NCBI RefSeq assembly: GCF_003841505.1
Contig: NZ_REGA01000008.1
Location: 62,001 to 126,000 of the forward strand
From: Natrarchaeobius chitinivorans
GTDB lineage: Archaea > Halobacteriota > Halobacteria > Halobacteriales > Natrialbaceae
Length of the DNA stretch: 64,000 bases
Reading direction: 5' to 3'
The stretch's first letter is position 1. Each line of letters starts with the position of its first letter. The notes below the pieces were generated by a model. That model was not told the DNA's origin and did not search any database. It saw only the letters and a list, made by a program, of their open reading frames with translations. Made by a program: the position numbers and the translations under genes. This document shows, in pieces, positions 35,755 to 43,513 of this stretch.

Positions 35755-37437
35755 CTAGCTAAACTTCTGGACGGTCACGTCGAGCGTATCGAGGTCGACG
35801 ATCGGCGCATATCCCGCGTCGGGGTCGATGTTGACGGACGCCTGGAAGTCCGTCTGGGCCTGCCAGCAACCCGAGTTGATCGCGAGCACGTTGTGGTACT
35901 TGCCGAATCCGAGTTTGTGAACGTGGCCGGTGTGAAAAATGTCGGGGACCTCCTCGATGACGAGGTGGTCTTTCTCTTCCGGTGCCAGGCGTGTGTGGCC
36001 GCCGAACTGCGGGGCGACGTGGCGCTTTTTCAGAAGCTGGTACATCGCTTTGTGAGGTTCGTCGTAACTGGCCTTCTCCTCCGGAAGTTCGGCGATGACC
36101 TCGTCGAGGGAGACGCCGTGATACATCAACACGGAGACGCCCTCGAGGGTCACGGTCGAGGGGTTGCTCACGATCCTCGAGTCGTGAGCCGACATGATCT
36201 CCCGGAGGTCTTCGTCGAACCCCGGTTGGGGTTCGGCGAGTCGCACCGCGTCGTGGTTGCCCGGGATCATGACGACCTCGATGTTGCCTGGGACGGATTT
36301 GAGCCGTTCGCTGAACGCCTCGTACTGCTCGTAGATGTCGACGACGTCGAGTTCCTCGTCCTGATTCGGATAGACGCCGACGCCCTCGACCATGTCGCCC
36401 GCGATCAGCAGGTACTCGACGTGCTGGGCCTCCTGGGTGTGAAGCCAGTCGGTGAACGCACTCCAGGCGTCGGCCATGAACTCTTCGCTGCCGACGTGGA
36501 CGTCGCTGATGAGCGCCGCCTGTACGTGACGGTCGGCGGTCGACGGCTCGTGGGTCCGGGGGACGTCCGGAAAGTACATCGAGTCGACGAACGCGATTCC
36601 GGCGTCGTCCGAGAGCGTTCCTTCCATCGCCAGCGCTTCGTCACAGAGCAACTCCTGGACCAGATCGGCGTACTCCCGATCTTTCATCACCAGCCACGGA
36701 AACGTCCCCGTGGCGTCCTCGAGTTCGATCAGCCAGTGACCGCTCGCCGTCGAGCGGATGTCGTTGACCAGCCCGACCATGCCGACCTCGCTGCCGCCGG
36801 GCATGCTCTGGATCGCCGTCGCCGGCCGGTGGTTGACCCGCCCTTTCAGTTTCGAACCGAGTCGCTCGAGACGGTCGCGAAAGACCGCCACGAAATCCTC
36901 GTACTCGCCAGTTCCGGTGCTCTCACCGGTCATGTCGCCGGTAATCTCGAGCGATCGGAGCGCGGGATCGCTCGATCGACCGGCTCCGGACCCCTTCGTT
37001 TCAACTGGAGACGTGTCGCCGGTATCGCCGCCCATCGGCGGGGTAGTTCCAGTTGAAACAGAGGGGTGTTCGTCGTCGCTCCCCCGACCGCCATCCGAGT
37101 GGTCAGCGGACGGACCTACGTCGGACGGGTCTGTGTCGGACGGATCCGCGTCGGACGGGCCTGTATCGGGCGGATTCGCGTCGGAGGGTCCCGCGTCGGT
37201 CGATCCGCGTTTACCCTCGGATGAGGTCGGTTCGGTGAGAGGTTCTTCACTCGAGAGCACCGATTCGACGTGGCCGGTTCGGACGACCAGTGCGTCGTCG
37301 GGCATCGTCTCGATCACCTGCTCCAAGACGGCCGCGGGGCGGTCCGCCGAGGCGATCTTCGTGACCGCCTCACGCTCCGCGTTGAACCCCATGCTGGTGA
37401 GTTCGTCGACGATTTTCGCGGGTCCCTCGAGTGGCAC
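35755..37437 (-). CDS. polB: DNA polymerase D small subunit DP1 (3'-5' exonuclease)
   Basis: Proofreading/regulatory subunit of polymerase D, partner of DP2 at the window start. The calcineurin-like phosphoesterase motifs are intact: SDVHVGSEEF, AGDMVEGVG, IPGNHDAVR, LMYHGVS and FHTGHVHKLG. The start is GTG (37435-37437): MPLEGPAKIVDEL fits haloarchaeal DP1 N-termini and a TATA box (37459-37466) lies ~26 bp upstream. Between an N-terminal helical domain (1-65) and the OB/exonuclease part (from ~175) is a ~100-residue disordered linker with SDxGPSDxDP repeats. Within it, residues ~127-150 are encoded by two inverted ORB sequences (see findings). 560 residues. Confidence 0.95.
   Translation of the reverse strand: MPLEGPAKIVDELTSMGFNAEREAVTKIASADRPAAVLEQVIETMPDDALVVRTGHVESVLSSEEPLTEPTSSEGKRGSTDAGPSDANPPDTGPSDADPSDTDPSDVGPSADHSDGGRGSDDEHPSVSTGTTPPMGGDTGDTSPVETKGSGAGRSSDPALRSLEITGDMTGESTGTGEYEDFVAVFRDRLERLGSKLKGRVNHRPATAIQSMPGGSEVGMVGLVNDIRSTASGHWLIELEDATGTFPWLVMKDREYADLVQELLCDEALAMEGTLSDDAGIAFVDSMYFPDVPRTHEPSTADRHVQAALISDVHVGSEEFMADAWSAFTDWLHTQEAQHVEYLLIAGDMVEGVGVYPNQDEELDVVDIYEQYEAFSERLKSVPGNIEVVMIPGNHDAVRLAEPQPGFDEDLREIMSAHDSRIVSNPSTVTLEGVSVLMYHGVSLDEVIAELPEEKASYDEPHKAMYQLLKKRHVAPQFGGHTRLAPEEKDHLVIEEVPDIFHTGHVHKLGFGKYHNVLAINSGCWQAQTDFQASVNIDPDAGYAPIVDLDTLDVTVQKFS
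36986..37009 (-). promoter_or_regulatory. ORB-like element inside DP1 gene, left (G-run points left)
   Basis: Minus strand reads CCAGTTGAAACGAAGGGG plus flanking TCT and TCC, differing from the oriC right ORB at one position of this core. In the DP1 frame it is translated SPVETKG. Confidence 0.65.
37044..37068 (+). promoter_or_regulatory. ORB-like element inside DP1 gene, right (G-run points right)
   Basis: Plus strand reads GTTCCAGTTGAAACAGAGGG then GTG. It forms a divergent pair with the element at 36986 about 40 bp away, the same polarity as the oriC ORBs. In the DP1 frame the complementary strand encodes SVSTGTT. Confidence 0.65.
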
Positions 37438-40815: not shown

Positions 40816-42600
40816 CTAGTTCTCGAAGCGGGCCTGGACGAACGGCTGGACGTCGTCGATGTCAGAAAGCCGGGAGTCAGAAAGCAGGACGGCCTCGGTT
40901 TCCTCGAGTGGAACCGAGAGGCTGATCTCCTTGGTCCGGCCGTACCGGCCCTTCGAGACGACGACCGCGTTGACGATCCCGAGCATGTCGAGTTCGCTGA
41001 TGAGGTCAGTCACGCGCCGCTGGGTGAGGACGTCCGCATCGATCTCCTCGCAGAGACGCTTGTAGATGTTGAACACCTCACCGGTGTTGATGCTGTGGAC
41101 GCCGTTTTTCTCGAGCAGGATGATCGAAAAGAGGACGAGTTTGCTCTGGGTCGGGAGCGTCCGGACGACCTCGACGACGCGGTCGAGTTCGATCTTGTCC
41201 TGGGCCTGTCTAACGTGTTCTTCGACGATCGTTTCCGCCTGGGAGCGCTCTGCGAGTTCACCCGCGGTTCGAAGCAAGTCGAGCGCGCGACGAGCGTCGC
41301 CGTGTTCCTGTGCGGCAAAGGCCGCACAGAGCGGGATTACGTCGTCTGAAAGTGCACTGCCTTTAAACGCGACTTCCGACCGGTGCTGGAGGATGTCCCG
41401 CAGTTGATTTGCGTCGTACGGCGGGAAGACGATCTCTTCCTCACCGAGGCTAGATTTGACGCGGGGATCGAGGAAGTCTGTGAACTTCAGGTCGTTCGAG
41501 ATACCGATGATCGACACCCGTGAATTCTCGAGTTCGGAGTTCATCCGTGAGAGATTGTAGAGGGTGTCGTCGCCGCTTTTCTCGACCAGTTTGTCGATCT
41601 CGTCGAGCATGATGACGACGACTCGCTCGTCGTAGTCGACTGCGTCGAAAAAGACGCTGTAGACGCGATCCGTCGGCCACCCCGTCATCGGCACTTCCTC
41701 GAACGACTCTTTATCCTCCTTGAGGTCGACGATGCGGTCTTCGACCGCCTGGCGGGAGTCAAAAGACGTCGACTCGAGCGGGTGATCGGACGGGAAACGT
41801 GCGTCAGGAGTATCGTCGGTATTGGCGGGACCCGTTGCTTCGGGTCGAGCACGTCCCTCAGCCTCCGAAACCCGACGGTCGGGATCCGATTCAGCGTCGG
41901 AAACGTCGTCCGTCGACCGCTCCGCCGGAGACCCCCCTGTTTCAGGTGTGAAATCACCATCAGTATCGGAGTTGGTAGTTCCAGTCGAAACGTTGCGTTC
42001 GCTCCCTCCGTCCGCCGTGGGATCGGCGAAAAGCTCCGACTCGTTCTCGGATGCGATTTCGAACTCCGGTGACTCGGATCCCGGATCGTAATCGTCGACG
42101 GCCGCGAGTAACTCCTCGAGTGAGTCGATCCGATCGTCTATACGCTGTTCGTTCTTTTCGATGAACTTGTTCGCAAGCTGTGCGAGCACGCGATACTGCG
42201 TATCGGTAACCTCACAGTTGATGTACTCGACGTCACACGGGACGCTGTACTTCTTGGACGTGCTCTCGAGTTCTTTGCTGACGAATTTCGCGCTGGCGGT
42301 CTTTCCGGTTCCCGTTTTGCCGTAAATGAGAATGTTCGACGGCGTCTCACCACGGAGGGCGGCCACGAGGATCGTCGCCATCTTGTTGATCTGGTCGCTG
42401 CGGTGTGGGAGTTCGTGGGGAGTGTACGACGGCCGGAGAACTTCCTTGTTCTCGAAGATCGGCTCGCCGCTGAGCAAATCGTCGAACAATCCCTGATTCG
42501 ACTCCTCGTCGCCGATATCGGTCACACCGAGTTCCGTCGCGAACCCGCGCGTACCGTCTATCTCGTTCGAACCGGTCGTGTTCATATCCTCGTCTGACAT
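40816..42600 (-). CDS. cdc6: Orc1/Cdc6 replication initiator with acidic insertion
   Basis: AAA+ origin-recognition protein, 594 residues, encoded next to the origin at 43174-43513. Motifs: Walker A GKTGTGKT (94-101), Walker B VVIMLDEID (~328-336), sensor I GISNDLKF, sensor II region HGDARRALDLLRTAG, and a C-terminal winged helix (about 510-594, with RVTDLISELDMLGIVN). Residues ~168-285 are an acidic low-complexity insertion not needed for the AAA fold. Residues ~203-224 of it (NVSTGTTN...FTPETGGS) are encoded by a pair of inverted ORB-like sequences. Orc1/Cdc6 proteins bind ORBs through the winged helix and AAA insert. Confidence 0.95.
   Translation of the reverse strand: MSDEDMNTTGSNEIDGTRGFATELGVTDIGDEESNQGLFDDLLSGEPIFENKEVLRPSYTPHELPHRSDQINKMATILVAALRGETPSNILIYGKTGTGKTASAKFVSKELESTSKKYSVPCDVEYINCEVTDTQYRVLAQLANKFIEKNEQRIDDRIDSLEELLAAVDDYDPGSESPEFEIASENESELFADPTADGGSERNVSTGTTNSDTDGDFTPETGGSPAERSTDDVSDAESDPDRRVSEAEGRARPEATGPANTDDTPDARFPSDHPLESTSFDSRQAVEDRIVDLKEDKESFEEVPMTGWPTDRVYSVFFDAVDYDERVVVIMLDEIDKLVEKSGDDTLYNLSRMNSELENSRVSIIGISNDLKFTDFLDPRVKSSLGEEEIVFPPYDANQLRDILQHRSEVAFKGSALSDDVIPLCAAFAAQEHGDARRALDLLRTAGELAERSQAETIVEEHVRQAQDKIELDRVVEVVRTLPTQSKLVLFSIILLEKNGVHSINTGEVFNIYKRLCEEIDADVLTQRRVTDLISELDMLGIVNAVVVSKGRYGRTKEISLSVPLEETEAVLLSDSRLSDIDDVQPFVQARFEN
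41931..41951 (-). promoter_or_regulatory. ORB-like element inside cdc6, left
   Basis: Minus strand reads CACCTGAAACAGGGGGG (preceded by ACA), matching the oriC left ORB core CCACCTGAAAC and G-run. Translated in the cdc6 frame as TPETGG. Confidence 0.55.
41976..41996 (+). promoter_or_regulatory. ORB-like element inside cdc6, right (no G-run)
   Basis: Plus strand reads AGTTCCAGTCGAAACGTTG. The dyad core is as in the oriC right ORB but the G-run is missing. It is divergent to the element at 41931 and is translated as NVSTGTT. Confidence 0.5.
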
Positions 42601-43173
42601 TCGTCGTACACGCCCCCCTCATTTCGAGTGGAATTCCGAAGCCGGGAGCCGGATTAGACGGGTGTAGATGGGGAAATACGGCCAACCTACGAGATAACCG
42701 TCCCAGTTCGGATCCAGTTGATGCAAACGAAGCAGAGGAACACCTCGATAATAAATTCTTCCCTTCAATTCAGCATCGCAGACTAGATACGATCGGGCGA
42801 ATATCCAATATTCGGCCATCTCATGCCACTATAAGCGTTGATTTGGAAGGTATTGGTCAGGCATTTCTCGAACAGGCGGTTACGTTGGGGTTACGCACGT
42901 TACGCTAGCGTCAATCTCGCGGGGGTATTTCGGTGATTTATCGAGTACGGTTCGACACGTGACGTCGATCCGCTTCCAGCTGATCGGTGAATGACCTCTC
43001 GAACGTCTTTTCGATCGTCTCGGAGCAGGGGTTCGGTTCTCGAGTGAACACGCGAACGAATGATGAGATGGCCGGGTGACAGATGATGAGATGGGTGTGT
43101 GATGAGTGATTGACTGATGATGATAGTGATGGGTGATCGATGGGTGTGTTGGTTGGTGACTGATGACACCCCT
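42601..43173. other. Left flank of the origin; cdc6 promoter region
   Basis: 573 bp without a convincing gene. It should contain the cdc6 promoter. From ~43040 to 43160 it is a run of GATGA/TGATG-type short repeats (GATGAGATGG, TGATGATGATAGTGATGG). One minus-strand frame just upstream of cdc6 looks vaguely protein-like but is not supported. Confidence 0.55.
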
Positions 43174-43204
43174 GACCCCCCACCCCTTCGTTTCAGGTGG
43201 AACG
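43174..43204 (-). promoter_or_regulatory. Origin recognition box, left
   Basis: Minus strand reads GTTCCACCTGAAACGAAGGG and continues GTGGGGGGTC: dyad core plus G-run, pointing away from the AT-rich core. Confidence 0.88.
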
Positions 43205-43483: not shown

Positions 43484-43513
43484 TCTCCAGTCGAAACGAA
43501 GGGGTGGGGGTGG
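43484..43513 (+). promoter_or_regulatory. Origin recognition box, right
   Basis: Plus strand reads CTCCAGTCGAAACGAAGGGG followed by TGGGGGTGG; mirror partner of the left box. Confidence 0.88.

Follow-up and report, generated by a model that had tools for sequence, protein, structure and literature searches.

Why should a gene for a replicative polymerase subunit carry DNA of the type found at the replication origin? In the window (the whole 64,000-nucleotide stretch of Natrarchaeobius chitinivorans DNA that was analysed), two sequences resembling the origin recognition boxes (ORBs) of oriC1 lie within the coding sequence of DP1, the small exonuclease subunit of PolD. They could be there by chance, as a by-product of the peptide that they encode, or as DNA with a role of its own, in which case the nature of that role has to be weighed. 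The neighbourhood of oriC1 in the window comprises DP1, a signal peptidase gene, orc1/cdc6, oriC1 itself and a gene for a GTP-binding protein (Table 1), a synteny that is already known from haloarchaea (PMC4010727). DP1 consists of a conserved N-terminal segment, a low-complexity acidic linker and a conserved domain, with PF04042 (DNA_pol_E_B) matched at residues 308-505 (E 2e-16).

Table 1. Positions of the DP1, orc1/cdc6 and oriC1 features within the window
Feature	Position	Strand	Basis or remark
DP1 gene (PolD small exonuclease subunit)	35755..37437	-	ORF and translation; GTG start inferred
ORB site B, CTCCAGTTGAAACGAAGGGG	36991..37010	-	In frame as SPVETKG
Spacer between sites B and A, 36 bp, variable sequence	37011..37046	.	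B-to-A start-to-start 56 bp
ORB site A, TTCCAGTTGAAACAGAGGGG	37047..37066	+	Divergent to site B; coding strand gives PSVSTGT
orc1/cdc6 gene, adjoins oriC1	40816..42600	-	Cdc6_C PF09079 and Cdc6_lid PF22703
ORB-like site in disordered orc1 insert (FTPETGG)	41932..41951	-	Frame shared with site B
Degraded divergent partner in orc1, TTCCAGTCGAAAC, with loss of the G-run	41979..41991	+	Sequence comparison
ORB-like site 5' of orc1, starts 14 bp upstream of ATG	42614..42633	-	Sequence match
oriC1 left ORB, TTCCACCTGAAACGAAGGGG	43183..43202	-	Sequence match
oriC1 right ORB, CTCCAGTCGAAACGAAGGGG	43485..43504	+	Sequence match; inverted relative to left ORB

Origin recognition boxes in DP1 and orc1

The first-pass annotation had described two ORBs in DP1, about 40 bp apart, with their G-runs facing outward and lying in frame in the linker. 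This description is confirmed: 40 bp separates the two 18-mers, and translation gives the linker peptide HPSVSTGTTPPMGGDTGDTSPVETKG, which carries both ORBs in frame. The outward polarity of the G-strings is common to the DP1 pair and the ORBs of oriC1, and each DP1 site combines the core TCCANNYGAAAC with a G-string, as do the ORBs at this genome's own oriC1. The latter had been placed at 43174 and 43484; they are present, but their positions were a few bases off. In Haloarcula hispanica, the G-strings are essential at oriC1 (PMC3936714). A chance match in DP1 is excluded by counts in the window and across the genome together with a reversed control. The window holds 7 ORB matches with at most two mismatches against 0.27 expected, and in the 4.57-Mb genome TTNNANNTGRAACRRRGGGG occurs with at most one mismatch at only 5 sites. 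The DP1 pair accounts for two of these, and the remaining three comprise an oriC1 site, a site within orc1 and one elsewhere. Similarly, exact matches to TCCANNYGAAACRRRGGGG number 6 in the genome, two of them being the DP1 pair, with 0 for the reversed control. The consensus of 79 intact DP1 pairs is the same as that of 206 oriC1 sites, differing only in which bases are preferred at positions 6-7 and 14-16, and this agreement is the ground for considering it very probable that Orc1/Cdc6 binds the DP1 pair.

Strong ORBs are concentrated at three places, namely oriC1, the orc1 gene (both 5' of it and inside it) and DP1. The two orc1 sites did not appear in the first-pass annotation. The AAA+ region of the gene is interrupted by a long insert of low complexity, and an ORB inside orc1 (at most one mismatch) is present in 47 of 72 loci of the window's family and in none from the other families sampled; the 47-bp spacing to its degraded partner recurs in many members of the window's family. 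An ORB-like site 5' of the orc1 N-terminal match (at most two mismatches) is found across families, in 99 of 118 loci, and is a candidate autoregulatory operator. Two further observations concern sites away from these genes. A rhodanese-like lipoprotein gene, on a contig other than that of oriC1, has a perfect oriC1-type ORB (L001 1501-1520; G000:C6:13471) upstream of it, and an inverted pair of TTACAACTCGAAAAAGGGGG (L022/L023; G000:C23, 50919 on the minus strand and 51273 on the plus strand), with a 334-bp spacer of 43% GC, sits beside an orc1 paralogue and is probably a further origin that uses a separate class of ORB.

Conservation across haloarchaea and selection on DNA

DP1 loci were sampled from 80 genomes of the window's family and from 53 genomes of the same order outside that family, giving 134 linkers with the window included. 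At a tolerance of one mismatch, site B is present in 109 of these, site A in 85 and both in 79; outside the window's family the corresponding figures are 32 of 53 for site B and 17 of 53 for both sites together. Most haloarchaea examined thus carry one or two ORB copies within the DP1 coding sequence. These counts are not phylogenetically independent, yet the intact pairs come from ten families. Both sites are exact in Haloarcula amylovorans, H. pellucida, H. salina, Natronomonas gomsonensis and Natrarchaeobius chitinivorans. Searching whole genomes for the exact divergent pattern recovered it in 62 of the 121 genomes of the family and in 69 of the 243 of the order (Halobacteriales), with none for the reversed control, at one place per genome and always adjoining the conserved domain of DP1, as checked against the DP1 coordinates. 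In Natronorubrum texcoconense (G004), DP1 is found on two contigs, each with the pair, which reflects either a duplication or an assembly overlap.

Retention is not universal. Site B alone is kept in family f12, in part of f5 and in Halorubrum (including Halorubrum coriense), while both ORBs have been lost from DP1 in four genomes (G011, G175, G178 and G223), and the existence of such single-site and siteless lineages means that the element is not essential everywhere. The pair is absent from three families of the order (f2, f9 and f15, with small genomes), and in 23 DP1 loci belonging to other orders of this phylum the linker has no ORB-like site; together these absences contradict an ancestral archaeal origin of the feature. 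Spread by viruses was also considered and rejected, the exact pattern being absent from the viral contig collection. In one genus of family f6 (L126, L127 and L131), the ORB consensus at the origin has drifted to CCACCGGAAAC and CCACTGGAAAC, and the DP1 sites have decayed alongside.

The use of synonymous codons separates selection on DNA from selection on peptide. In the 101 linkers bearing PxETxG, the proline codon is CCA, the glutamate codon GAA and the glycine codon GGG without exception. The corresponding shares in the DP1 domain are 6% (CCA among Pro codons), 24% (GAA among Glu codons) and 24% (GGG among Gly codons). The residue preceding the proline varies (S, A, V, T, D, P, G or F), with a T-ending codon in the forms listed. 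Likewise, among the 89 linkers bearing VS[TGS]G, valine is always GTT (background 7%), the third residue always has a T-ending codon, and glycine is GGA in 88 (background 9%). Shared ancestry was controlled for with 212 columns of the DP1 domain that are both conserved and degenerate, taken from the same genomes: none of the 126 columns of four- or sixfold degeneracy is more than 97% one codon, and only seven favour an A/T-ending codon, at 82% at most. Moreover, when the linker peptides were recoded according to the codon usage of each genome, 0.00 genomes were expected to carry both ORBs with at most one mismatch, against the 79 of 134 observed. The fixed rare codons, the control columns and the recoding null together show that selection acts on DNA, and the ORB pair is kept as DNA, not merely as peptide.

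A constraint on peptide alone would make PSVSTG and SPVETKG short protein motifs and the match to the ORB a by-product of coding. Peptides of these types do recur, and some ORB positions are friendly to coding (position 15 of site A is G, which gives Ser and not Phe). However, rare codons have become fixed at the synonymous positions, residues differ between linkers at the degenerate ORB positions, and the motif is gone in essentially all recoding simulations, so that this explanation is scarcely credible. Linkers that keep the peptide and lose the DNA motif, which the first-pass annotation had named as evidence against its proposal, were looked for, and no orthologue was found with the peptides in ordinary codons. 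Its broader claim, that DP1 carries initiator-type DNA with conservation at synonymous sites, is borne out across the order, with the sites standing as candidates for initiator binding.

Geometry of the pair and its distance from oriC1

Four start-to-start spacings occur among the 79 intact pairs: 56 bp in 64 of them, 53 in 9, 68 in 4 and 74 in 2. By contrast, site B lies at 27 different distances from the conserved domain of DP1, ranging from 92 to 383 bp. Helical phasing was rejected as the basis of the spacing, since 53, 56, 68 and 74 bp fit no 10.5-bp rule; all four preserve the reading frame. An inverted arrangement also means that the transcript is able to pair, and a stem in the DP1 mRNA could control its translation or decay. 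However, pairing of the arms within genomes is not above that of between-genome shuffles (0.9015 against 0.8967, p 0.095), the p value of 0.04 for arm identity is uncorrected for relatedness, and one-armed lineages exist. Each arm, moreover, matches the ORB of oriC1, and that ORB is also present as a single copy 5' of orc1; this makes protein binding to each arm the simpler explanation and an RNA hairpin very improbable.

Proximity to oriC1 does not account for the pair. In G005, which is assembled as a single contig, the DP1 pair is exact and lies at 238 kb, orc1 at 431 kb and the oriC-type pair, with a 298-bp spacer of 46% GC, at 1777 kb. In this genome orc1 and DP1 are thus 194 kb apart, and oriC1 is split from orc1 by more than 1 Mb. 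In G036, oriC1 is found beside gbp, 156 kb from both DP1 and orc1, and the DP1 pair is again exact. The orc1 gene mostly lies a few kb from an intact DP1 pair, but about 10-194 kb from it in several genomes, including G063 and G032, where the distance is 31-34 kb and the exact pair is retained. A requirement for oriC1 nearby is therefore rejected, the pair being intact with oriC1 156 kb or more than 1 Mb from DP1. The pair travels with DP1 and not with oriC1, and its persistence after this separation favours a role tied to the gene.

The first-pass annotation had also raised a cryptic origin at DP1, and Orc1 bound to the pair might recruit MCM and start replication there. The G-strings point outward as at the oriC1 ORBs, and in Sulfolobus the proposed role of Orc1-1 on the pair of inverted ORBs at oriC1 is to bring MCM to the region between them (PMC12141716). 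However, the DP1 spacer is 36 bp here, and spacers of intact pairs average 66% GC, compared with about 300 bp and 50% GC at oriC1. Characterised archaeal origins possess an AT-rich unwinding region (PMC3936714), and none was found in the DP1 spacers. A short GC-rich spacer lacking a duplex-unwinding element leaves the proposal of an auxiliary origin unsupported and improbable.

Proposed initiator binding and the supply of PolD

The reading that we favour, tentatively and at slightly less than an even chance, is that the pair is an intragenic operator coupling the expression of DP1, and hence of PolD, to Orc1/Cdc6. Two protomers of the oriC1 initiator would bind the pair in a complex of constant geometry, and the bound complex, about 370-450 bp into DP1, would act as a roadblock to, or repressor of, DP1 transcription, so that synthesis of the PolD small subunit would be tied to initiator availability. 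This circuit would run parallel to the ORB just 5' of orc1, and the disordered linker would be the part of the protein able to tolerate a constraint on its DNA. In E. coli, RNA polymerase can be blocked by DnaA that is bound inside a gene. An operator is expected to stay with a single gene and to be under selection as DNA, and both hold for the DP1 pair. Against the proposal, no ORB lies in the DP1 promoter itself, and operators are not usually placed within genes.

The main rival is titration of Orc1, which we consider unlikely but far from negligible. The pair would serve as a sink of the datA type, holding two Orc1 protomers per chromosome copy and limiting re-initiation at oriC1, its location in DP1 being a historical accident. 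Of the roughly six exact ORBs in a genome, DP1 has two, about a third of the total and as many as oriC1, which is plausible as a titration load, and a sink does not need to be close to oriC1. In Haloarcula hispanica, oriC2 is restrained by a region rich in ORBs that lies downstream of oriC2-cdc6E, and titration of Cdc6E is the probable means (PMC3936714). However, a sink requires neither fixed spacing and polarity nor a permanent home in one gene, none of the examined genomes has the exact pair elsewhere instead of in DP1, and two sites make a small sink beside the oriC2D cluster. A titration locus is expected to have several boxes near the origin that it controls; DP1 has one pair, which in G005 and G036 is far from oriC1.

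The proposed DP1 operator has partial parallels in known systems. It shares the consensus TCCANNYGAAACRRRGGGG and the outward polarity of haloarchaeal oriC1 ORBs, but differs in its short fixed spacing, its GC-rich spacer, its position inside a coding gene and its independence of oriC1. The oriC2D region of Haloarcula hispanica similarly has extra ORBs beyond the origin, proposed as modulators of initiator supply (PMC3936714); it consists, however, of many ORBs directly downstream of oriC2-cdc6E, whereas DP1 has a single pair, order-wide and selected as DNA within codons. The DnaA regulon and datA of E. coli also place initiator sites outside oriC, where they regulate replication-linked genes or sequester initiator, and DnaA prefers closely spaced box pairs at regulon sites (PMC11317965). 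That system is bacterial, with an unrelated recognition sequence and with DnaA pairs 2-3 bp apart upstream of target genes. In Sulfolobus, Orc1-2 is an archaeal Orc1-family protein that acts as a gene regulator (PMC9738581), but it is a non-initiator paralogue of the DNA-damage response, whereas it is the oriC1 initiator whose sites the DP1 pair matches.

Both oriC ORBs and gbp-cdc6-sec-pol synteny are described in work on haloarchaeal origins (PMC3936714, PMC4010727). Within the open-licence literature on these origins, no description of ORBs in a polymerase gene was found. We know of no other codon-embedded initiator pair in a replicative polymerase gene, and to our knowledge the matching of initiation to replisome supply in archaea is poorly known. 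The DP1 pair would be a clear case of regulatory DNA selected within coding sequence, and cautions that conserved linker peptides may mirror a function of DNA. Both sites can be erased by synonymous changes that leave the protein unaltered. Orc1/Cdc6 may directly control PolD through a dual-use element embedded in codons, in an ancient order-wide circuit in which Orc1 would be autoregulated through its own promoter-proximal ORB, a possibility that we hold at nearly even weight. Being unique in each genome and present in most haloarchaeal families sampled, the pair offers a precise target for the coupling of initiation to replisome supply.
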